A stretch of DNA of 64,000 nt from Arthrobacter rhizophilus (GTDB lineage: Bacteria > Actinomycetota > Actinomycetes > Actinomycetales > Micrococcaceae), in the NCBI RefSeq assembly GCF_026241105.1, contig NZ_JAPFFT010000010.1, forward strand, positions 62,001 to 126,000, given 5' to 3'. Of this stretch, positions 8,946 through 22,746 are shown piece by piece (positions within the stretch are counted from its first letter, which is position 1; each line of letters starts with the position of its first letter). The translations under genes were made by a program, and so were the position numbers. Under the pieces are notes generated by a model, which was not told the origin of the DNA, ran no database searches, and was given only the letters and a program-made list of their open reading frames with translations.

Positions 8946-9392
8946 TTAGTTCTGGACTGAATTGTTGATTTTGTCGAACACCGGAAGGGCGGCCTGGACG
9001 GCGTCGCGCTCCGCTTGGCTCAGGGTCCCGAGAATCCCGGCGATGAATTCGTTGCGCCGGCGGTCTGCATTCTCGACGGCGGCACGCCCGGCCGGTGTCG
9101 CAGCGACGCGGACGGCGCGGGAGTCGTCCGGATCTGCTTCGCGCTTGACCAGACCGGCGCGCTCAAGCTTGATGATCTGCTCCGTGGCGCTAGGGACCTT
9201 GACCCCAAGGTTCCGGGCGATCCCTCCGACGCGTGCACCGCCGTCGAGCGCCATCTTGAGAACGCCAAGCTGAGCTGAACTGAGTTGCTCCTCGGAATCG
9301 AGGCGGCGCATCACGTAGACGCTCTGCCGCAAGGCTTCCCGGAATGATTGGGCGAGGGCGAGGAGCGCATCGTCGGCTTGATTGGTTGTCAT
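8946..9392 (-). CDS. MarR-family regulator of the adjacent DHA1 exporter
   Basis: This 148-aa winged-helix protein has a recognition region (VGGIARNLGVKVPSATEQIIKLE) followed by the wing motif ADPDDSRAVRVAAT, where the D-x-R of MarR proteins is present. A perfect 17+17-bp palindrome covers the first base of its start codon and the only candidate ribosome site (an AGGA 9 nt upstream), so bound protein would block both transcription and initiation. It forms an operon with the exporter 27 bp downstream. Confidence 0.93.
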   Translation of the reverse strand: MTTNQADDALLALAQSFREALRQSVYVMRRLDSEEQLSSAQLGVLKMALDGGARVGGIARNLGVKVPSATEQIIKLERAGLVKREADPDDSRAVRVAATPAGRAAVENADRRRNEFIAGILGTLSQAERDAVQAALPVFDKINNSVQN

Positions 9393-9427
9393 ATTTAGGT
9401 ATCCTAACAGTTAGGATACCTAAATAT
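9391..9427. promoter_or_regulatory. MarR operator: 37-bp perfect palindrome
   Basis: The arms at 9391-9407 (ATATTTAGGTATCCTAA) and 9411-9427 are perfect reverse complements around a CAG spacer. The site overlaps the marR start region, implying tight autorepression of marR and the exporter. It is AT-rich, unlike its surroundings. Confidence 0.85.
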
Positions 9428-9473
9428 CAAGGATTGCGCATCTCTTTTAGTAAGGGCCTCTTCGGATTCCTGG

Positions 9474-9977
9474 CTACAGCGCCAGCTTCAATCCCTCGTG
9501 GCTGGCCACGAAGCCCAGCCGTTCATAGAAGCGATGGGCATCCTTGCGGGATTTGTCGCTAGTCAGCTGGACCATGGTGCAACCACGGCTCCTGGCCTCC
9601 TCGATGGCCCACTGCATCATTGCAGCACCAACGCCATGGTCCCGCAGCTCGGCAGCGACACGCACGGCCTCGATCTGGCAGCGGAGCGAGCCCTTCCGCG
9701 CCAAGCCTGGAATGAAGCTCAGCTGGAAGGTTGCTACGCAGGCGCCGTTCAAGTGGCCCACCACCAACAATTGGGCGGGATCCTCGTTGATCTGTTGGAA
9801 TGCTTGCAAATAGGGACCAACATCCTCGGCGTTTTCGCGGGAGCTGCCCAATTGATCAGCTGCGAGCAGTCTCAGAATGGCGGGGAGGTCCTCCCAGTGG
9901 GCCCGGCGGAGCGTGAAGACTCCTTCGTCCAGAACCATGCTCAACAGCGGCTTCACTCCTGGATTTGCGTGACTCAT
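9474..9977 (-). CDS. GNAT family N-acetyltransferase
   Basis: The protein is 167 aa from the ATG at 9977, the likeliest start; the frame stays open 19 codons further and a later ATG (MVLDEG) is also possible. The acetyl-CoA pyrophosphate loop is clear (VAAELRDHGVGAAMMQWAI), and the C-terminal RFYERLGFVASHEGLKL is the usual GNAT beta6-alpha4 end. The acceptor is unknown. It stands alone between two marR genes. No strong ribosome site is visible. Confidence 0.85.
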   Translation of the reverse strand: MSHANPGVKPLLSMVLDEGVFTLRRAHWEDLPAILRLLAADQLGSSRENAEDVGPYLQAFQQINEDPAQLLVVGHLNGACVATFQLSFIPGLARKGSLRCQIEAVRVAAELRDHGVGAAMMQWAIEEARSRGCTMVQLTSDKSRKDAHRFYERLGFVASHEGLKLAL

Positions 9978-10070
9978 ACCACTAGCCTGACACAGCCCGA
10001 GACTTGTTGCACGAATTTTGAGTGAAACGTTCAATCACAGTTTCTTGGATGGTTCACTGCTATTTTCACA

Positions 10071-10138
10071 ACCCTCCTGCACTTTTGGGGGACCAAACCG
10101 AAACCCTCCTGCAGATCATCATGAGAACGAGGGTTTGG
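10071..10138. repeat. Interspersed repeat modules, left of the second marR gene
   Basis: Two copies of ACCCTCCTGCA (10071-10081 and 10103-10113, the second extended by GAT) are followed by GAGGGTTT, which pairs with AAACCCTC to make a hairpin. The same module appears inverted (ATCTGCAGGAGG) on the right side of the marR gene and around the methyltransferase at 17 kb. Confidence 0.6.
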
Positions 10139-10153
10139 TGCTTCCCGCCAAAG

Positions 10154-10588
10154 GTGACTGACCTCAAGGCCGAGCTTCGCGGCGTACGCGTGCAACTATC
10201 TGTGCTCAATCACCAGGTCGGCACTCAAGCCGAGCTGAAGGACGTTGACCTTGATTGTCTTGACCTGATCTCGCACCGGGGGCCGCTCAGCCCGAGCATG
10301 CTGGCCAAACACACAGGCCTGCACCCAGCCACGATGACCGGCATCCTCGACCGACTTGAACGCGGAGGCTGGATAGTCCGGGACCGCGATCCGTCCGACC
10401 GGCGCGCCGTGGTAATCCGGGTTCTTCCCGACAGAAACGCCGAGATGTTCCGGCCCTACTCAGGAATGAACGGCCTCATGGACACCATCTGTGCGGACTA
10501 CGACGACGCTGAAATCGCCGTCATTACCGACTTCCTGCGACGCGTCCAGGCGGCCGGACTAACGGCGTCGGAAGAACTCGGCAGCTAA
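10154..10588 (+). CDS. MarR-family transcriptional regulator
   Basis: The protein is 144 aa from GTG 10154. An ATG at 10121 is an alternative, but it lies inside the repeat hairpin. The helix-turn-helix (SPSMLAKHTGLHPATMTGILDRLERGG) and the wing (RDPSDRRAVVIRV) are intact MarR features, including the D-x-R motif. No target gene is adjacent on the same strand: downstream is repeat DNA and then the converging mannitol operon. The gene is bounded on both sides by inverted copies of a short repeat module, so it may have been acquired as a unit. Confidence 0.82.
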   Translation: MTDLKAELRGVRVQLSVLNHQVGTQAELKDVDLDCLDLISHRGPLSPSMLAKHTGLHPATMTGILDRLERGGWIVRDRDPSDRRAVVIRVLPDRNAEMFRPYSGMNGLMDTICADYDDAEIAVITDFLRRVQAAGLTASEELGS

Positions 10589-10591
10589 TCC

Positions 10592-10748
10592 ACGCTCGCT
10601 CACCTTTGGGGCCCAAAACGCTCACCCTCCCGCACATCAAAAGTGAAGGACTGTGAGCGTTTTGGCCGTCAGATCTGCAGGAGGATCGCTCGAAAACGGC
10701 CCAAAGGTGAGCGAGCGTTCGGGAAAAAGTCCGTATATCTGCAGGAGG
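10592..10748. repeat. Nested inverted repeats with interspersed modules
   Basis: An outer perfect 19-bp inverted repeat joins 10592-10610 (ACGCTCGCTCACCTTTGGG) to 10700-10718. Inside it, CCAAAACGCTCAC (10613-10625) pairs with GTGAGCGTTTTGG (10653-10665). Two copies of ATCTGCAGGAGG lie at 10673-10684 and 10737-10748. The modules recur at 10.07, 16.83 and 17.86 kb. No coding potential is seen. Confidence 0.75.
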
Positions 10749-10774
10749 CTCGCCGGGGAGCCGGGCCCGGCGAG
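10749..10774 (-). terminator. Hairpin downstream of mtlD
   Basis: CTCGCCGGG (10749-10757) pairs with CCCGGCGAG (10766-10774) around an 8-nt loop, 13 bp after the mtlD stop on the minus strand. There is no T-run, so termination is inferred from its position. Confidence 0.55.
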
Positions 10775-10786
10775 TGGGGCCGGAGT

Positions 10787-11935
10787 TTAGCCCTCGGCCT
10801 TGCGGTCTTCGATCAGTTTCTGCACCTGCGGGAACAGCGGGTGCGTCGGCGGCAGATCCGTGATGCGTTCAACCGCCTCGGCAGCGTCCATCTCGGAAAG
10901 CATCCGGGTGAGCTCCACGGCTTCGTCGTCTGCTCCGTCGTCGAAACGCAAGGCAGCGGACATCGCGTCGAGCAGGGCAACGGGAGTGACTCCCCGCTCG
11001 GCGAGCTCCGCGGCCGGGCCGATGAACCGCTCGTGCCGGCCCAGTTTGCGCAGCGGAGCGCGGCCCACACGATTCACTGTGTCCGGAAGGTACGGGTTGG
11101 TGAAGCGGGACAGGATCTTCTGCACGTACGCCTCCTGCTCGGCCTCGACGAAGCCGTGCTTGGCCACGAGAAGGTGCTTGGTTTCCTCCAACACGGCCCG
11201 TACTCGCGCAGCCACCGAGGCATCGGCCATGGCTTCGGAGATCTTCTCCAAGCCGGCACCATAGCCGAAGTAAGCTGCCGAGGCGTGGCCAGTGTTGACG
11301 GTGAACAGCTTGCGCTCGATGTACGGACCAAGCTCGTCCACGAAGGTCGCTCCCGGAATCACCGGAGGCGTGCCCGCGAACGGGGTGCGGTCGATGACCC
11401 ACTCGTAGAAAGTCTCCACGGTGACGTCCAGGCCTTGGCCGGGCGCCTGGTTGGGGACGATCCTGTCCACGGCAGTATTGGCAAACACCGCCACAGAGGA
11501 AAGATCACCCGCGGCACCGTCCCAAGCGGCCTCAACTTCGGAACGCAGGAGGTCCGTGGCGTTGATCGCGTTCTCGCAGGCCATGACCTGAAGCGGAGCC
11601 AACGACGGCGACCGGCCGGCCAGGCCGCGTGCGATCACTGGCGCCACGAACTTGAGGATGTGCGGCCCCACAGCCGTGGTGACAAGGTCCGCCGTCGCGA
11701 TTTCCGCGACGACGGCAGCCTCCTCAGAGCCCGAATTCAGGGCCCGGAAACCGGACACGGTCTTGACCGCCGCATTTTCGCCAACCTCGTGGACCTCGTA
11801 GGAGGAGGCGGAGGCGAGCTGGCTGATCAAGGCGTCCGCGACATCGGCGAAGACCACCTCATATCCAGCCTCGTGCAACAGCAACCCGACGAATCCCCGT
11901 CCGATGTTCCCGGCCCCAAAATGGACTGCCTTCAC
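10787..11935 (-). CDS. mtlD: Mannitol-1-phosphate 5-dehydrogenase
   Basis: MtlD oxidises mannitol 1-phosphate, made by the PTS, to fructose 6-phosphate with NAD in the cytoplasm. The N-terminal dinucleotide fold reads [12 protein letters not shown], diagnostic of MtlD, followed by [15 protein letters not shown]. The long-chain polyol dehydrogenase C-terminal domain contains [21 protein letters not shown]. The 382-aa length is normal. The GTG start shares one base with the mtlA stop (TAGTG), so translation is coupled. It is the last gene of the TetR-mtlA-mtlD operon and is followed by a hairpin. Confidence 0.96.
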
Positions 11936-13893
11936 TATGCGTTGACCTTTCCGAACAGATCCAGCACTTCCTGTACCGACTCGGCTTGCTCAAGCTGGGC
12001 CACTTGCGCCTTGTCCGTGAAGATCTTGGCGATGGAGGACAGGATGTGGAGGTGCTCGTTGTTGATGCCGGCGACGCCGACGACGAACTTGACCTGCTTG
12101 CCACCCCAGTCGATGCCTTCGGGGTAGCGGACAATCGAGACACCGGAGTGCAGGATGTGGTTCTTTGCCGCGTTGGTGCCGTGCGGGATAGCAAGGAAGC
12201 TGCCCATGTACGTGGACACGGATTCCTCGCGCTCATGCATGGCGTGAATGTAGCCCATGTCCACGGAGCCGCGGTCCAGCAGGAGCCTGCCTGCTTCGTC
12301 GATGGCCGAGTCACGGTCTGTCGCGGTGCCGTTGAGGATCACGCTTTCAGCCAGCAGGACATCCTTGCCCCCGACGGCGGTGGCCGGTTGGGCGGCAGGG
12401 ACACCGGCGGCCGGTTCGGCGACCGCCGTCGAGCCCTCAGCGCCGAATCCGGCGTTGCTGCTCTTGACCAGTTCCACAATCTCCTCGTACCGGGGACTGT
12501 TCATGAAGTTGTCCACGGAGACGTGTACGGCACTGGAGGTGACCGGCCGGGCGCGTTCCGTCAGATCCTGGTGCGTGACCACGACGTCGTAGGTGTCGCT
12601 GAGGTTGGCAATGGCCGAATTGGTGACCTTGACGTCCGGGAAACCGGCTGCCTTGATCTTGTTGCGCAGCACCGAGGCACCCATCGCGCTGGAGCCCATG
12701 CCGGCGTCGCACGCGAACACGATGTTCTGGATAGGACGGGTCAGGACAGCGGTACCGCCACCGGCGCCCAGGAGAGCGGAGGAAACGGAACTCTTCTTGC
12801 CCTTGAGCTCTTCCATCCTGGACGTTGCCTGGCCCAGCGCGTCCACGTCGGTGGTCTTGCTGGTCCGCAGGATCACGGAGGCAATCAGGAAGGACACCGT
12901 GGCTGCAAGGAGCACAGACAGTGCCACACCGAAATAGCTGTCTTTCGCTGTCGCGGCAAAGACGGCGATGATGCTGCCAGGGGCTGCCGGCGAACGCAAG
13001 CCCGCGCCGGTGACTACCAAGGTGAAGATGCCAGTCATGCCGCCCGCAATCGTGGCGAGGATGAGGATCGGCTTCATGAGAATGTACGGGAAGTAGATCT
13101 CGTGGATGCCGCCGACAAACTGGATGAGCGCGGCGCCGGGAGCGGATGCCCGTGCCAGGCCTTTACCGAAGAACATGTAGGCGAGCAGGACGCCGACGCC
13201 CGGACCGGGGTTGGCCTCCAGCAGGAACAGGATGGACTTGCCGTTTTGCAGCGCTTGTTCCGTACCGAGCGGAGTGAGGATGCCGTGGTTGACAGCGTTG
13301 TTGAGGAACAGTACCTTGGCGGGTTCGATAAAGATGCTGGTCAGCGGCAGAAGTCCGTTGTGGACCAGGAATTCGACGACGTTGCTCGCCCCGTCACTGA
13401 AGGCCTTCACTACCGGGCCGATCACCAGCATGCCGAAGATGGCCAGGGCGGCACCGACGATGCCTGCGGAGAAGTTGTCGATCAGCATCTCGAAGCCCGG
13501 CTTGACCCGGCCTTCCCAAACCTTGTCGAGCTTCTTCATGATCCAGGCCGTGAGCGGACCCATGAGCATGGCACCGATGAACATCGGGATATCCGTACCA
13601 ACAATCACACCCATGGTGGCGGCGGCTCCAACCACGCCGCCGCGGATGCCGTGGACCGCCCGGCCACCGGTGTAGCCGATCAGGAGTGGCAACAGGTACG
13701 TGATCATGGGGCCCACCAGTTTGGCTAGGTCCGCATTGGGAAAGAACCCGGCCGGGATGAACAGGGCGGTAATGATGCCCCATGCAATAAAGGCCCCGAT
13801 GTTCGGCATGATCATGCCGGAGAGGAACGTTCCGAACTTTTGGACACCAACGCGCACGCTGGTGCGCTGTTTCGCAACTGACACTGTTGCCAT
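11935..13893 (-). CDS. mtlA: PTS mannitol transporter EIICBA
   Basis: MtlA takes up and phosphorylates mannitol. This 652-aa form has all three PTS domains. Membrane IIC spans about residues 1-340 ([16 protein letters not shown]; the GIHEIYFPY substrate motif). IIB has the phospho-Cys near residue 396 ([14 protein letters not shown]). After an Ala/Pro linker, IIA has the active His near residue 571 ([11 protein letters not shown]). An AGGA sits about 10 nt before the ATG. Phosphate must come from EI and HPr: ptsI is close by, but the adjacent ptsH is only a remnant, so HPr must be supplied from elsewhere if this system works. Confidence 0.97.
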
Positions 13894-13962
13894 TGTGTGA
13901 ATTCCTAACGTGAGCCCCGCATCAGTGCGGGATCAGTCGATATCTATCGAAGGAGGACAGCT

Positions 13963-14685
13963 CTAGGAGCTGCTGGAGATTCGGTGAAGCCATTCAAGGA
14001 AAAGCTTCAGTTCCGAACTGGATAGCTGGTCTGAATGCGAGGCTTGGAGTGCCGCATTCAGCGCGATTGCCGCAACAACAACGGACGACTTGCCGGAGTC
14101 GTCGGCTGCGGCGCCACGGGCTGTTTCCGTGGACACGGCGAAAATCATGGAATCCCGGGTCATGGTGGAGAGCTCGAGGTTCCGGTCTTCCAATGGCTCT
14201 GCAATGAGCATGAGCGTGACACCAACGTTGGCTGCCAGAATGCTCCTTGCTGCCTCGCGCGGGGGTACGTTGACCTGTCCGGCAATGGCCGCCTTGCTCA
14301 GCATTTCCTCCAGAAGCGACTCGGCATCAGCCACGATGGCCGGCCTGCTTTCGGGACGGATATTGCCGAACATCACCAGGTAAAGGTGCGGTTGGGTAAG
14401 TCCGAACTGGACGTGGTTGTCCCACATCCGCCGGACGTCTTCCAGGGGTTCCCCAGAAGGTGCGAAGTCCCGCTCTCCCGCCACGTACTCCTCGAAGCCG
14501 GCTGCAACGACGGCGTCGAACAGCCCCTCCTTGTCGCCGAAATGGTGGTAAAGCGTGGGCGCCGTGACGCCGGCAAGTTTGGTGATTTGGCGCGTAGAGA
14601 CCGGCGACCCGTCCGAATTCGCCAGCAACTCGGCAGCTGCACGGAGCAGCCGAGTTTTAGGCGGAAGCTGGTCATCGAAACTCAT
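13963..14685 (-). CDS. TetR-family regulator of the mannitol operon
   Basis: This 240-aa regulator has an N-terminal helix-turn-helix (VSTRQITKLAGVTAPTLYHHFGDKEGLFDAVV) and a long helical ligand domain. It lies 69 bp upstream of mtlA on the same strand and is divergent from ptsI. The TATAGC-AAC-GCTATA palindrome in the shared intergenic region is the likely operator for both sides. A TetR protein here is unusual, because mannitol PTS operons are better known with MtlR or DeoR-type control. The inducer is not evident. Confidence 0.9.
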   Translation of the reverse strand: MSFDDQLPPKTRLLRAAAELLANSDGSPVSTRQITKLAGVTAPTLYHHFGDKEGLFDAVVAAGFEEYVAGERDFAPSGEPLEDVRRMWDNHVQFGLTQPHLYLVMFGNIRPESRPAIVADAESLLEEMLSKAAIAGQVNVPPREAARSILAANVGVTLMLIAEPLEDRNLELSTMTRDSMIFAVSTETARGAAADDSGKSSVVVAAIALNAALQASHSDQLSSSELKLFLEWLHRISSSS

Positions 14686-14703
14686 AGCCGCTACCCTAGC
14701 ACC

Positions 14704-14718
14704 TATAGCAACGCTATA
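14704..14718. promoter_or_regulatory. Candidate TetR operator between tetR-mtlAD and ptsI
   Basis: TATAGC (14704-14709) and GCTATA (14713-14718) form a palindrome around AAC, 18 bp upstream of the tetR start and about 85 bp upstream of ptsI. Placed between divergent genes, it could coordinate mannitol uptake with EI. Confidence 0.55.
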
Positions 14719-14802
14719 TGAAGTGAGTCACAGGAGATTTTTTCGGACCCCGAGGCGCCGCAGCCGGTGGGTCCGATCCGAGAGCAGGAACAGAGGATTT
14801 CA

Positions 14803-16491
14803 GTGCAGAATTTCCAAGGAGTAGGCGTCAGCCCGGGCCGCGTCATTGGCACTATCCGTCAGATGCCCAAGCCAGTCAGCGAACCGCCGTCGGGCGAGCA
14901 GCTAGCCGTTTCCACCACGGCGGAAGAAGCCGTCGCCGGACTGAAAGCGGCCGCCCAATCGGTCCACGACGAGCTCAAGGCACGCGCGGACAAGGCCAGT
15001 GGGGACGGTAAGGCCGTGCTGGAAGCCACCGCGCTGATGGCCAAGGACACCATGCTCCTGAAATCGGCCACCAAGCTCATCAACAACAACGGCAGCTCCG
15101 CGGAACGCGCTATCTGGGAAGCCGGCGCCTCGGTATCGGAAATGCTCCACAACCTGGGCGGGTACATGGCCGAGCGTGCCACTGACGTCTTGGACGTCCG
15201 CGCCCGGATCGTCGCCGAACTTCGCGGTGTCCCCGCCCCGGGGATCCCGGCGTCGGACACTCCGTTCATCCTGGTGGCCGAAGACCTGGCCCCGGCAGAC
15301 ACCGCAACGCTGGACCCCGCCATCGTGACAGCACTGGTCACTTCGGGCGGCGGACCGCAGTCCCACACGGCGATCATCGCGCGCTCGCTCGGCCTGCCCG
15401 CCGTCGTCGCTGCCCGCGGGGTGGACGAAATCCCGGACGGCACCGAGGTCTTTGTGGATGGCGCGGCCGGCTCCCTTTCCCTCGAACCCTCCGAGGAGCA
15501 GCGCGCCGCCGCCCTCGCATGGGTTGAAAATGCCGCCACGCTGGCGGTTTTTGATGGAAACGGCACGACGGCGGACGGCCACTTGGTGCCGCTTCTCGCC
15601 AACGTGGGCGGGGCCAAGGACGCCGCCGCGGCCGCAGCGTTGGGCGCCCAGGGCGTGGGCCTTTTCCGCACCGAGTTCTGTTTCCTGGAACGCGATACCG
15701 AGCCGACCGTACTGGAACAAGCCGCGGCGTACAGGGGCGTGTTCGACGCCTTCCCGGGAAAGAAGGTGGTGCTCCGGACCCTCGACGCCGGCGCCGACAA
15801 GCCCCTTCCCTTCCTCACCGACGCCACCGAACCCAATCCGGCCCTCGGTGTGCGCGGCTACCGCACCGACTTCACCACGCCGGGCGTTTTGGAACGCCAA
15901 CTCGAGGCCATCGCCATAGCCGCCGAGGAATCAGAAGCCGACGTGTGGGTCATGGCGCCCATGATCTCGACGCCGGCCGAAGCCGCCCGTTTCGCCTCGC
16001 TGTGTGACGCCGCCGGGATCAAGACTCCGGGCGTCATGGTGGAAGTTCCGTCTGCGGCACTGACCTCGGCCTCGGTCCTGCGCCACGTAGGCTTCGCGTC
16101 ACTGGGTACCAACGACCTCACGCAGTACGCCATGGCCGCCGACCGGCAACTCGGCCCGCTTGCCGAACTCAACACCCCATGGCAGCCTGCCGTCCTGCGC
16201 TTGGTCCAGTTGACCGTCGCGGGCTCTGCGGAAGAGGGCAACAGCAAACCAGTTGGCGTCTGTGGTGAGGCAGCCGCAGACCCGGCCCTCGCCGTCGTAC
16301 TTGTTGGCCTGGGCGTGTCCACGCTATCCATGACCGCCCGGTCCCTGGCCGCCGTCGGAACCGTGCTCAAAACAGTGACCCTGGAACAGGCACAGGAGCT
16401 GGCCCGCTTGGCGCTCAGCGCTTCCGACGCCCTCGACGCCAAAGCCTGGGTCCGTGCCAAGCTGCCGATCCTCGAGGAACTCGGGCTCTGA
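14803..16491 (+). CDS. ptsI: PTS enzyme I (phosphoenolpyruvate-protein phosphotransferase)
   Basis: Enzyme I starts the PTS phosphate relay by taking phosphate from PEP onto a histidine and passing it to HPr. The active His falls at residue 188 (GGGPQSHTAIIARSLGLPAVV region), matching His189 of E. coli EI. The PEP-binding barrel contains FRTEFCFLERD, LGVRGYR and SLGTNDLTQYAMAADR, and a catalytic Cys near residue 487 (VGVCGEAAADP). The GTG at 14803 is preferred because AGAGGA lies 7 nt upstream and the product starts VQNFQGVGVSPG like other EIs; an in-frame GTG 12 codons earlier lacks this. The following ptsH is broken. Confidence 0.95.
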   Translation: MQNFQGVGVSPGRVIGTIRQMPKPVSEPPSGEQLAVSTTAEEAVAGLKAAAQSVHDELKARADKASGDGKAVLEATALMAKDTMLLKSATKLINNNGSSAERAIWEAGASVSEMLHNLGGYMAERATDVLDVRARIVAELRGVPAPGIPASDTPFILVAEDLAPADTATLDPAIVTALVTSGGGPQSHTAIIARSLGLPAVVAARGVDEIPDGTEVFVDGAAGSLSLEPSEEQRAAALAWVENAATLAVFDGNGTTADGHLVPLLANVGGAKDAAAAAALGAQGVGLFRTEFCFLERDTEPTVLEQAAAYRGVFDAFPGKKVVLRTLDAGADKPLPFLTDATEPNPALGVRGYRTDFTTPGVLERQLEAIAIAAEESEADVWVMAPMISTPAEAARFASLCDAAGIKTPGVMVEVPSAALTSASVLRHVGFASLGTNDLTQYAMAADRQLGPLAELNTPWQPAVLRLVQLTVAGSAEEGNSKPVGVCGEAAADPALAVVLVGLGVSTLSMTARSLAAVGTVLKTVTLEQAQELARLALSASDALDAKAWVRAKLPILEELGL

Positions 16492-16530
16492 GCCCCGCCG
16501 TACCGCTCTATCTGAACACAAGGAGAAACC

Positions 16531-16586
16531 ATGCTGCTTTGGATTCCCTGGTAACCCTGTTGGAAACAGACCTCGACGCCGTTTAG
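16531..16586 (+). pseudogene. ptsH: ptsH (HPr) remnant: start and C-terminal tail only
   Basis: A strong AAGGAG (16520-16525) and an ATG at 16531 sit 39 bp after ptsI, exactly where HPr is expected. The ATG frame gives only MLLWIPW and stops. In another frame, from 16536, the DNA reads ALDSLVTLLETDLDAV followed by TAG at 16584, which matches the C-terminal helix of actinobacterial HPr (known example ends KIAALIAQDLDAE). The roughly 70 codons between, including the phosphorylated His15 region and the regulatory Ser, are missing and the join is out of frame. I read this as an internal deletion of ptsH; an unrelated leader peptide is the weaker alternative. Confidence 0.72.
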
Positions 16587-16833
16587 TGCCGGGGCCCGGT
16601 GGGGGGGCCCACGCCGGCGAGGGCCCCGGCCTGAGCTTGCGAAGGCTGGGAGCCGGTGGGGACTGTGGCCGGCCGCAAGGACCGGCCACAGCTTCCGGGG
16701 GTCTCTACCGGAATACGCGCCATCAAGTACGGGGGGACCGCGATGGCGCGCTGTCTGTTTGTGGGACCAGGTGCCGAATCGTGACGCGGAAATTGGATTC
16801 TTCTTTAACCGCCCTCATCAATTGCTCCAACCG
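16587..16833 (+). other. Noncoding region after ptsI with GC-rich hairpins
   Basis: No gene is supported here. CTGTGGCCGG (16663-16672) pairs with CCGGCCACAG (16682-16691) and is the best candidate terminator for ptsI, although it lacks a T-run. The stretch 16590-16640 is very GC-rich with several short self-complementary tracts. Confidence 0.45.
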
Positions 16834-16912
16834 AACGCTCGCTCACATCTGAAGGCCCCTTTCCCGACCCTCCTGCAGATATGACGGCCCCCAACGCTCC
16901 TGCAGATATGAG
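16834..16912. repeat. Interspersed repeat modules, left of the methyltransferase gene
   Basis: AACGCTCGCTCACATCTG (16834-16851) is followed by CCCTCCTGCAGATATG (16868-16883) and AACGCTCCTGCAGATATG (16893-16910). These match, in the opposite orientation, the modules at 17.86-17.96 kb beyond the methyltransferase and those near 10.6 kb. Confidence 0.75.
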
Positions 16913-17021
16913 CTGTGACTCGCGGCGTTAATTAGCGTCTCTTCTGCGGCGCAGCGGGTGACAAGCGTTACTCGGGGCCCCAAACTGCTCATAGGCGATT
17001 GCCCGGACCGCACAGTCGCCC

Positions 17022-17816
17022 ATGAGCACCACCAGCCGAAAGGGACCGGGAATGCGCAAGCCTAGTGCCGCCGTCGCCTTCTATGCGCTCAGTACTGTGC
17101 TGCTCTTCGCGCACCGCGTCACAGGCTTCGTCCCGAAGACCTTCCGGTACCCATTCGAGGGCGAGATACCTCCACAAGCCGAGGCGTCGGCCAGGGTCAC
17201 GTTCTTCGACGGGGCCGTGGACCGCTTCCTTCCCGGGATCGATCAGTTGGTCATCCTCGGAGCAGGCTTCGACACGCGCCCATACCGGCTCCCGCAGGAC
17301 ACGCCGGTCACTTCCTTCGAGGTCGATGCCCCGAAGACACAGGCGGTCAAGCGCGACATACTGATCAAGGCACGAATCGACGCACCCAGGGTCACGTTCG
17401 TGCCAGCGGACTTCGAGAAGGACGACTGGCTCGCCAAACTCGTGGATGCCGGGTTCGACCCCCGGCGCCCAGCTCTGTTCCTCTGGGAGGGCGTGACGAT
17501 GTACCTCGACCGGGGAGCGATCGAGGACACACTGAGCAAAGTTGCGAGTTGCGCCAAGGGCAGCCTGCTCGCGTTCGACTACTTCACGACCGAGCCGCTC
17601 GAGTCGAGCATGCCTTATTGGCGATTCGGGAGGGCGGCGGCCAAAGCAGTAGGAGAACCGTTGAAGTTCGGCGTGGACAGTGCACCGCCGTCGCGGGAGC
17701 GTCTATCCGAACTTCTCCGATCCCGTGGGTTGGCGCTACTCGAACAGCATGTGCTCGGTCGTGAGACCAAGAAGAAGCGCGCGTGGGGTGGCTTCGCGAT
17801 TGCCGTGGTGGAGTGA
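17022..17816 (+). CDS. Class I SAM-dependent methyltransferase (LCMT/TIGR00027-like)
   Basis: This 264-aa protein has the S-adenosylmethionine motif LGAGFDTRPYRLP near residue 79 and the family hallmark FLWEGVTMYLD near residue 157, typical of the leucine-carboxyl-methyltransferase-like family common in actinobacteria. The substrate is unknown. The N-terminus, with a hydrophobic stretch (VAFYALSTVLLFA), differs from what I expect for the family. ATG 17052 is a plausible alternative start with AAAGGG upstream. The gene is bounded by inverted copies of the intergenic repeat modules and has no operon partner. Confidence 0.85.
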   Translation: MSTTSRKGPGMRKPSAAVAFYALSTVLLFAHRVTGFVPKTFRYPFEGEIPPQAEASARVTFFDGAVDRFLPGIDQLVILGAGFDTRPYRLPQDTPVTSFEVDAPKTQAVKRDILIKARIDAPRVTFVPADFEKDDWLAKLVDAGFDPRRPALFLWEGVTMYLDRGAIEDTLSKVASCAKGSLLAFDYFTTEPLESSMPYWRFGRAAAKAVGEPLKFGVDSAPPSRERLSELLRSRGLALLEQHVLGRETKKKRAWGGFAIAVVE

Positions 17817-17859
17817 CGCCATGGCTCCAGCGACCACACCAAGCTGAGGGAATTAGGGC

Positions 17860-17963
17860 CTGCAGATCTGCAGGAGCGATCCGTCGAATGGGTTCACATC
17901 TGAGCGAGCGTCGCGGCAAAAGGCCGTAAAGGTGAGCGAGCGTCACACGGTGAGCGAGCGTCA
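17860..17963. repeat. Interspersed repeat modules, right of the methyltransferase gene
   Basis: CTGCAGATCTGCAG (17860-17873), a perfect palindrome continuing into GAGCGATC, is followed by ACATCTGAGCGAGCGTC (17896-17912) and two more copies of GGTGAGCGAGCGTCAC starting at 17931 and 17949. All are inverted relative to the set at 16.83 kb. No coding potential is seen. Confidence 0.75.
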
Positions 17964-17991
17964 CGAGGGGCAGGGGGCAAGAGCAAGCCGC

Positions 17992-19275
17992 TCAGGCGAA
18001 GGCGGAGATACCCGTAATGGAGCGTCCTATGATCAGGGCCTGGACGGTCTCCGTGCCCTCATATGTATGGATGCCTTCGATATCGGCGAAGTGCCGTGCC
18101 ACGCGGTTGGCCAACAATATTCCGTTGCCACCCAGCAGGTCCCGCGCGTTCGAGGCGATGCCGCGGGCGGTGCGGGTACACGTGAACTTCGCGAGCGCCG
18201 CCTGCGCGGGGGTCAGCACGCCCTCCTCGTCCAGCTTGGTCATCTGCATGACCAAGAGCTGCATCGTGGCGAGCTCGGAGTGCATGCGGGCAAGACGCTC
18301 CTGCACAATCTGCGAAGCCGCCAGCGGGCGGCCGAACTGCCGGCGCTGGGCGGCGTACTGCACTGCAGTCTCGTAGCAGGCAGTGGCATGCCCGACGGCG
18401 GACCAGGCCACTCCGAGCCGGGTCGCCAAAAGGACGCGGGCGGTGTCCTTGAAACTCCGTGCGCCCGGGAGGACGTTTTCCGCCGGTACGAAGACGTTTT
18501 CCAAGCGGATGTGTGCCTGAAAGATGGCCCGCAGGGAGAGCTTGCCCTCGATGGTCGTGGCGGAGTAGCCAGGGGAATCCTGCGGGACAAGGTAGCCATG
18601 GACCTGTCCGTCGTCGCCACGAGCCCAGACCACCGTCAGGCCGCCGATCGAGCCGTTGCCGATCCACTTCTTTTCGCCATTGAGGACATACCCGCCCTCG
18701 ACGGCTGTTGCAGTGGTTTCGAGCCCTACCGAGTCGGAGCCGTGCGCCGGTTCGGTCAAGGCGAACGCGCCGTATTCATCGGCCCGGGAAAGTGCTGGAA
18801 GCCAGCGGGTCCGCTGTTCGGGAGAACCGCATTCGGCCACGGAACGCAATGCCAAACCACCTTGGACTGCCACCACCGTGCCGATGGAGCCATCACCGCG
18901 GCTCAGCTCCATGGTGACCAGCCCGGCAGCGGTCTTGCTCATGGCCGGGAACCCGTCGACGTCGATCCCGTCGCGCAGCAGGTCGAGTTCGCCCAGACGC
19001 TTCACGAGGTGCAGCGGGTACTCCGCCCGCTCCCAGTAGCCCGCGATGACTGGAAGGACTTCATCTTGGACAAAGGCCCGGGCACGCTCCCGGTAGGCAC
19101 GGTCCTGGTTGCTGATGTCCTTGAAAACGGAGGCCGGGTCCGGGTCCAAGGCTTCGTTCAGCACATATTCGGGTTCCATGGTGCCGTCCGGAAATACAGT
19201 GCCGTGCGGAAATACAGTGCCGTCCGGAAAAATGGCATTCAGTTCTGCGGAAGTGTCGTCGGACGTCGTCATCAT
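17992..19275 (-). CDS. Acyl-CoA dehydrogenase (glutaryl-CoA dehydrogenase-like)
   Basis: This FAD flavoenzyme is 427 aa from the ATG at 19275, which has GAGGA 8 nt upstream; an earlier in-frame start lacks a ribosome site. It has the three domains of the family: helical N-terminus, a beta domain with FALTEPAHGSD and KKWIGNGS, and a C-terminal helical domain with AAQRRQFGRPLA and HTYEGTETVQALIIGRSITG, where the Glu of YEGT is the usual catalytic base of the glutaryl-CoA dehydrogenase type. Residues 14-31 are three 6-residue repeats (FPDGTV type) encoded by an 18-bp tandem repeat. A tetR gene lies 200 bp upstream on the same strand. Confidence 0.9.
   Translation of the reverse strand: MMTTSDDTSAELNAIFPDGTVFPHGTVFPDGTMEPEYVLNEALDPDPASVFKDISNQDRAYRERARAFVQDEVLPVIAGYWERAEYPLHLVKRLGELDLLRDGIDVDGFPAMSKTAAGLVTMELSRGDGSIGTVVAVQGGLALRSVAECGSPEQRTRWLPALSRADEYGAFALTEPAHGSDSVGLETTATAVEGGYVLNGEKKWIGNGSIGGLTVVWARGDDGQVHGYLVPQDSPGYSATTIEGKLSLRAIFQAHIRLENVFVPAENVLPGARSFKDTARVLLATRLGVAWSAVGHATACYETAVQYAAQRRQFGRPLAASQIVQERLARMHSELATMQLLVMQMTKLDEEGVLTPAQAALAKFTCTRTARGIASNARDLLGGNGILLANRVARHFADIEGIHTYEGTETVQALIIGRSITGISAFA
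19181..19234. repeat. 18-bp tandem repeat (3 copies) in the acyl-CoA dehydrogenase N-terminus
   Basis: The unit GTGCCGTCCGGAAATACA is present three times in a row with one or two changes. It is in frame and encodes FPDGTV, FPHGTV and FPDGTM. The repeat number could vary between strains without breaking the reading frame. Confidence 0.9.
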
Positions 19276-22451: not shown

Positions 22452-22746
22452 ATCGCTTGGCGTAAATCCCCCGCGGAATACCGACCGCCCGGCCCGTTAT
22501 CTAAATGTGACTTTTCTAGTCGGCTGTTGTACCGTCGAGGGGCGACCCAATCCCCAGCTGGGCCGCTTCCGGGCTGACGCCGAGCTCTGCCGCAACCCGG
22601 ATTCCGCTAGAACTGCGGCAGAGACGGGGGACCCAGAGTCTCCGGGCCTACTTCTCCACAGGCCCTTGGGGTGAAGCCGCATGCGCGGCCGGACGGCCTC
22701 GTCCGAACCCGACAGCTAACCTCGAAGGCGTTGAGAGGCAATCACC
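22452..22746 (+). other. Noncoding intergenic region
   Basis: This stretch of 295 bases separates the monooxygenase from the Pro/Ala-rich protein. No supported gene, strong terminator or palindrome is seen. It ends in GAGAGG, the likely ribosome site of the next gene. Confidence 0.4.

Follow-up and report, generated by a model that had tools for sequence, protein, structure and literature searches.

Repeats flanking two single genes in a 64,000-nucleotide stretch of Arthrobacter rhizophilus DNA, referred to here as the window, belong to an intergenic family of 32-bp units that is repeated many times in this genome and also occurs in other Arthrobacter-like soil bacteria. The family is probably best understood as REP- or BIME-like, with arrays that act as two-way elements at gene 3' ends, units that multiply locally, and a methyltransferase gene and a marR gene that are ordinary neighbours of the arrays. 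Tandem duplication or slippage would multiply the units. Transcription arriving from either side would first encounter forward heads rich in C and next a strong hairpin, and the array may serve in both directions in transcription termination or in the protection of mRNA 3' ends. The methyltransferase gene would separate the two halves of an array, and marR would have been brought beside an array by a deletion. The first-pass annotation of the window had proposed that the repeats mark or mobilise single genes.

The repeat strings on which that annotation was built are all present beside the methyltransferase and marR genes. To the left of the methyltransferase gene, ACGCTCGCTCAC is found at 16835-16846 and CTCCTGCAGAT at 16870-16880 and 16897-16907, all on the forward strand. 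To the right, all on the reverse strand, are CTCCTGCAGAT at 17866-17876, ACGCTCGCTCAG at 17900-17911 and ACGCTCGCTCAC at 17932-17943 and 17950-17961. In the surroundings of marR, CTCCTGCAGAT occurs at 10106 (+), 10673 (-) and 10737 (-), and ACGCTCGCTCAC at 10592 (+) and 10707 (-). With at most one mismatch, CTCCTGCAGAT has seven matches in the window versus 0.97 expected, a number reached by none of 100 shuffles; with at most two mismatches, ACGCTCGCTCAC is not in excess in the window (7 versus 10.6 expected). Exact ACGCTCGCTCAC is present in 112 copies in the 4.81-Mb genome, compared to none for a control pattern read backwards, and CTCCTGCAGAT in 41 copies versus three for its control. The two strings had been taken for separate repeat modules, but they are head variants of a single unit.

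That unit is 32 bp long and consists of a 12-bp head and a 20-bp tail, as revealed by 60 stretches of the A. rhizophilus genome around either string (centred on 100 of the 112 ACGCTCGCTCAC copies and on the CTCCTGCAGAT copies, leaving out the one at 163219 of contig C78). The head follows the frame ACSCTCnnnCAS, which takes in ACGCTCGCTCAC and its variants, and the tail has a short tract of T (or A) near its middle. The commonest heads in the 60 stretches are ACGCTCGCTCAC (106), ACCCTCGCTCAC (19) and ACGCTCCTGCAG (18). When the distance between neighbouring heads is under 150 bp, it is exactly 32 bp in 37 of 46 forward-forward and 38 of 49 inverted-inverted pairs. Forward heads precede inverted heads, with 41 transitions from forward to inverted and seven in the other direction among neighbours within the same distance. 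Neighbouring tails within an array are more alike than tails from different loci (11.3 versus 8.6 of 20 positions), and the genome with the most copies, G045, contains identical consecutive units. Together these two observations suggest that units arise by local tandem duplication.

Where a forward head meets an inverted one, the two form a hinge, with a loop of 5 nt in 22 of 35 cases that often reads ATCAT or ATGAT. The arms of these 35 pairs, at least one of which is a chance pair remote from all arrays, have 2.06 mismatches in 12 positions versus 3.29 when arms are shuffled, and none of 20,000 shuffles was as low. Among arrays with at least two units on each side, the inner heads covary both in A. 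rhizophilus (1.74 versus 3.40 mismatches, 23 arrays) and in its nearest relative, G022 (1.35 versus 3.14, 20 arrays), again with no shuffle of 20,000 as low in either genome. The outer heads of the same arrays do not covary (2.30 versus 2.14 after shuffling in A. rhizophilus, 1.75 versus 1.84 in G022), and covariation between facing tails was looked for and not found. Pairing is thus preserved at the hinge alone. A whole array constrained to pair as one long hairpin was rejected on these grounds, and a hairpin inside each tail was set aside, intact single units having only a weak excess of internal pairing. At one G121 array (L310), the heads have changed to ACGCCCGGTCAS and closely similar variants, yet remain self-complementary, which suggests either concerted evolution inside the array or a lineage-specific head.

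Whole arrays fold strongly. Fold z scores range from -6.0 to -10.7 for seven arrays chosen at other sites, and a value of -7.95 was obtained for the mirrored array that separates marR from the mannitol dehydrogenase gene (mtlD). The half-arrays on either side of the methyltransferase gene fold no better than shuffled sequence (z of -0.83 on the left and +0.77 on the right). The stable hairpin near a stop codon that characterises a terminator or 3'-end element is thus found in whole arrays, but not in these two half-arrays of the window.

The position of arrays relative to genes is consistent with a role at 3' ends. With genes predicted by a home-made finder, 69 of 71 arrays (a set that excludes isolated single heads other than ACGCTCGCTCAC) are outside predicted genes, four of the 69 reaching 1 to 36 bp into the end of a gene. 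Leaving aside three arrays at stretch edges and the two inside predicted genes, 32 of the 66 classified arrays are between convergent genes, 26 between tandem genes and eight between divergent genes. The background of 135 headless intergenic spaces of at least 50 bp, drawn from these stretches plus the window (12 kb is common to both), has 17 convergent, 78 tandem and 40 divergent cases. Arrays are over-represented at convergent junctions (p = 7e-8) and under-represented at divergent ones (p = 0.008). Of the 26 arrays between tandem genes, 21 are closer to the upstream stop than to the next start, with median distances of 42.5 and 112.5 bp. The preference for gene flanks that the first-pass annotation presupposed is therefore real, and takes the form of a strong bias toward 3' ends.

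The main rival, which has a modest chance of being correct, is that a DNA-binding protein, such as a nucleoid or supercoiling factor, recognises the arrays. The head would be the recognition site, the 32-bp period would present successive heads on the same face of the helix, and the hinge palindrome would be a paired site. An RNA hairpin does not require a strict phase of 32 bp, or roughly three turns of the helix, and in this respect a DNA-bound protein fits better. The phase is held despite divergent tails, the same head and phase occur in lineages whose tails differ, and the outer heads stay near consensus without covarying, all of which favours protein binding. However, binding of this kind requires neither the preference for 3' ends nor covariation at the hinge.

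The distribution of copies along the chromosome also bears on this rival. With the replication origin placed from dnaA, the origin-proximal half of G022 holds 96 of 100 listed copies (110 in total) and that of G012 holds 71 of 100 (126 in total). Counted by clusters, 44 of 47 are origin-proximal in G022 (p = 2e-10, or 5e-5 if every unlisted copy is taken as a far cluster), as are 28 of 41 in G012 (p = 0.03). A distribution centred on the terminus was considered and rejected, as the dnaA position shows the copies to be centred on the origin. Concentration in the origin half is a further point in favour of protein binding, although it may only reflect the placement of core genes. Crowding near the origin in these two genomes counts against the 3'-end reading, as do the eight divergent arrays among 66 and the unfolded half-arrays of the window.

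Across genomes the family is patchy. Among 121 genomes of the genus, 93 contain zero to three head copies, 20 contain 4 to 89, and eight contain at least 90: G045 (363), G043 (221), G012 (126), G107 (115), A. rhizophilus itself (112), G022 (110), G054 (108) and G065 (90). All eight belong to the main clade in a phylogeny of mtlD, tetR and ptsI, built from 17 genomes picked by similarity and with several weakly supported inner nodes; G097, which this tree does not include, has 53 copies. Two exact heads in phase are found in 11 of 395 family genomes sampled (A. rhizophilus included) and in two of 32 genera. Holders among the matches listed include Arthrobacter sp. Hiyo8, MA-N2, B2a2-09 and M2012083, A. 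bambusae, A. terricola, Paenarthrobacter nicotinovorans and P. nitroguajacolicus. In a comparison that used 50 of 109 loci, each lineage has tails of its own, examples being ATCCCGCGTGCTTGAGCCGG, TCCACGTCGTGTTTT..., ATACGGGGCACTTTTCCCCA and GTATCCTCCCTTTGGGGCGG. The head, the 32-bp phase and, by eye, a TT at tail positions 12-13 recur across these four tails. The four arrays seen at Paenarthrobacter loci are all direct only.

Such patchiness could be expected of a non-autonomous transposable element that continues to spread by means of a different kind of transposase. This explanation draws on the restriction of phased heads to 11 genomes and two genera, on head counts that range from 0 to 363 within one genus, and on lineage-specific tails that share one head. 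It is nonetheless unlikely. No empty site exists at comparable places between genomes that are 96% identical in three genes, and visual inspection of a few whole arrays revealed no target duplication around them. No IMG/VR contig has two exact heads in phase, and neither phage nor plasmid records yielded a match to the marR/mtlD array.

The absence of empty sites comes from comparison with G022, which is 96% identical to A. rhizophilus over the three genes. All 37 arrays with both flanks in the G022 stretches have an array between the same flanks in that genome, a comparison that is biased because the stretches were mostly chosen around exact heads. Seven further G022 sites were located by synteny and all seven contain an array, two with degenerate heads only. 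Arrays are thus kept at 44 of 44 comparable sites; the remaining 27 of the 71 lack one or both flanks in the G022 DNA fetched. Unit number changes at collinear junctions: a length difference of more than 10 bp between the two genomes is found at 20 of 31 that contain an array, versus 10 of 82 other junctions.

Mobilisation of single genes by a MITE-like repeat, as the first-pass annotation proposed, would lead one to expect empty sites and is very improbable. It draws on the presence of two single genes within 8 kb that are flanked by repeats, and on array-bounded segments that come and go among relatives. The annotation had suggested looking for empty sites in relatives and for a REP-associated transposase, and neither turned up: there is no empty site among the 44 comparable G022 places, and no Y1_Tnp (PF01797, RAYT-type) gene in A. 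rhizophilus or any of 17 relatives. The same PF01797 search was positive in five of 14 well-known genomes, including E. coli. Nor was a mobiliser gene recognisable among 23 predicted proteins encoded between closely spaced arrays, which by eye look metabolic or regulatory.

The methyltransferase locus itself argues against mobilisation. The gene (17052-17816, + strand) encodes an LCM-family methyltransferase, assigned by a profile match to PF04072, and is situated between a forward half-array at 16835-16905 (+), with heads at 16835, 16867 and 16894 and spacings of 32 and 27, and an inverted half-array at 17866-17961 (-), with CTCCTGCAGAT at 17866 and heads at 17900, 17932 and 17950. Relative to G022, the A. 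rhizophilus protein lacks about 70 amino acids near its N-terminus, and it matches PF04072 from profile position 66 onward. The order ptsI, HPr, methyltransferase (where present) and acyl-CoA dehydrogenase was compared across 14 genomes, A. rhizophilus included. The gene is present in A. rhizophilus, G022, G045, G043, G107 and G065; G169 retains an internally deleted remnant, and in G079 and G137 about 13 bp from upstream of the gene can be made out by eye as a footprint. It is absent from G054, G012, G051, G121 and G124. Units are retained at the gene-free sites of G054, G012, G079 and G137, while G124 has a single head, G051 no more than a trace and G121 no recognisable unit. Since presence of the gene spans the clade of the mtlD/tetR/ptsI tree, it is most simply explained as ancestral with repeated loss. 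Judged from these comparisons, the methyltransferase gene looks ancestral to the clade and appears to have been lost repeatedly while the units mostly stayed.

The inverted flanks reported by the first-pass annotation exist as strings, but they do not represent a repeat built around the gene. They are the forward and inverted halves of a type of array seen elsewhere, split by what appears to be a resident gene. The 118 bp or so between the left half-array and the gene (16912-17029) have no match in G022. The HPr gene (ptsH) that follows ptsI has an internal deletion of about 220 bp and a frameshift at window positions 16531-16586 and is intact in G022; most of it has also been lost from G079 and G137. 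A search of plasmid records with the methyltransferase region gave two matches, neither within the arrays. An E. coli plasmid (NZ_AP024115.1) carries a methyltransferase gene 67% identical in DNA to window positions 17109-17816.

The marR locus has a different history. A mirrored array at 10592-10747, comprising both orientations, occupies the interval between marR and the mannitol dehydrogenase gene and is also found in relatives in which marR is not the left neighbour. An array is present at this mannitol dehydrogenase 3' end in 14 of 14 genomes, and marR was not found beside it in six of them. Two forward units at 10071-10114 (+) are located left of marR, whose conserved part is at 10154-10588 (+). 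In G022 these units are about 1 kb from marR, and a deletion of about 0.95 kb in A. rhizophilus relative to G022 explains why the left array now adjoins the gene. The left boundary of marR is therefore the product of a private deletion, and the shared boundaries that the first-pass annotation saw in the marR and methyltransferase segments are coincidental. Both loci thus speak against single-gene mobilisation.

Larger segments do differ at arrays. Array-bounded segments of 8 kb (C9), 10.6 kb (C15) and 15.4 kb (C17) in A. rhizophilus are absent from the matching G022 sites. By eye, the 15.4-kb segment (L300:1560-16900) contains a NiFe-hydrogenase-like cluster with accessory genes. The C9 site, between gntR and dodecin, was sought in 16 relatives and compared in 15 genomes, A. 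rhizophilus included; 12 of these have both flanks, and the stretches fetched from G079, G137 and G051 yielded only one flank. G022, G043, G107, G054 and G121 lack cargo and have a single mirrored array whose loop reads ATCAT, and G091 is cargo-free with a single unit remaining. A. rhizophilus and G012 have a cargo, A, between the array halves. In G045 a small whole palindrome is followed by cargo A and then by seven inverted heads. G153 has a different cargo between the halves; the cargo of G169 and G065 resembles it at the ends, by eye, and is accompanied by the left half only. Cargo A contains metabolic genes with no transposase recognised by eye; the cargo labelled B was read near its ends only. 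The genomes that carry cargo A do not form a clade, which suggests exchange or an old polymorphism.

The hinge could be a landing pad for such cargo, with a head-recognising factor common to the two genera that both spreads units and opens the hinge. This is a speculative proposal with little probability of being right. It stems from the ATCAT loop of the five cargo-free arrays and the presence of cargo between array halves elsewhere. Cargo A of A. rhizophilus has an ATCAT/ATCAC loop motif at both edges; the cargo edges of G012 and G153 are less clean.

A general tendency of arrays to attract gene turnover is not claimed. Junctions with an array are more often non-collinear between A. rhizophilus and G022 than others (15 of 46 versus 9 of 91, p = 0.0017). 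However, the excess is not significant once intergenic length is matched, with 15 of 46 versus 8 of 46 for spaces of at least 60 bp (p = 0.15) and 15 of 44 versus 4 of 30 for spaces of at least 100 bp (p = 0.059). The same is true when gene orientation is matched (tandem, 7 of 19 versus 5 of 23, p = 0.32; convergent, 6 of 21 versus 3 of 13, p = 1). Arrays as hotspots of gene turnover were rejected on this basis, and the loss of the excess also removes a possible argument for single-gene mobilisation.

The first-pass annotation likened the repeats to REP and MITE elements. The likeness to REPs holds, by virtue of the 112 copies, the intergenic placement and the mirrored arrays; the likeness to MITEs does not. 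A MITE was rejected because none of the 44 comparable sites is empty (27 arrays were not comparable) and no target duplication was seen by eye around a few arrays. With REPs and REPINs, as portrayed in parts of PMC2817692, PMC8266576 and PMC3116915, the family shares a copy number above 100 per genome, intergenic location, inverted pairs that form hairpins, compensatory changes and clade-specific copy number. Sections of PMC3733652 describe a REP unit as 20-40 bp, itself a palindrome, and tagged with GTAG or CGTC at one end. In contrast, a single Arthrobacter unit is not a palindrome, pairing being kept only at the hinge of two heads, and the head frame has neither tag at its end. The arrays also differ from REPs in their 32-bp phase and in the use of the same 12-bp head in two genera, and from RAYT-mobilised REPs in the lack of a Y1_Tnp gene in the 18 genomes searched.

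The habit of sitting at gene 3' ends is also known from BIMEs. Composite arrays, regular spacing and units in both orientations are further shared features, according to portions of PMC2817692. Unlike BIMEs, the Arthrobacter arrays mostly do not alternate, but run forward and then inverted around one hinge. REPs can be targets of insertion sequences, as a passage in PMC1525189 indicates. The two gene cargos found between array halves at one Arthrobacter site are reminiscent of this, except that cargo A is metabolic and no transposase was recognised in it by eye. MIRUs and other tandem intergenic repeats of actinobacteria are likewise short tandem intergenic units whose number varies among strains. 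However, MIRUs are longer direct repeats, whereas many of the Arthrobacter arrays are mirrored and have a hinge that covaries.

Other known systems fit less well. A CRISPR array was rejected in view of the dozens of loci, the mirrored units and the tails that share a consensus. A known structured RNA was rejected because the arrays have no Rfam match, and window positions 9000-19000 gave none up to E = 1. The only Rfam match in the window is a c-di-AMP riboswitch (RF00379, 67.9 bits) at 22595-22744. Rho utilisation sites and AAV Rep binding sites were also considered for comparison. No relevant description of the 32-bp family was found by title in the open-access literature, and one could exist elsewhere. 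Together with the lack of an Rfam match, this bears out the suggestion of the first-pass annotation that the family may be undescribed. The RepRanger report (PMC12306157) includes a table row for Arthrobacter livingstonensis, so REP-like sequences of the genus may be contained in the output of that tool. The text of PMC3733652 contains none of the actinobacterial names that were tried.

Finally, the analysis cautions that a gene flanked by repeats should not be taken for a gene mobilised by repeats. REP-like repeats are best known from Proteobacteria, and the RAYT transposase is thought to spread them. The REP-like family described here belongs to an actinobacterial lineage that yielded no RAYT, and it has a 32-bp phase, one head shared by two genera, and tails that diverge. 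Both the agent of their dispersal and their function at gene 3' ends are made testable by the Arthrobacter arrays.
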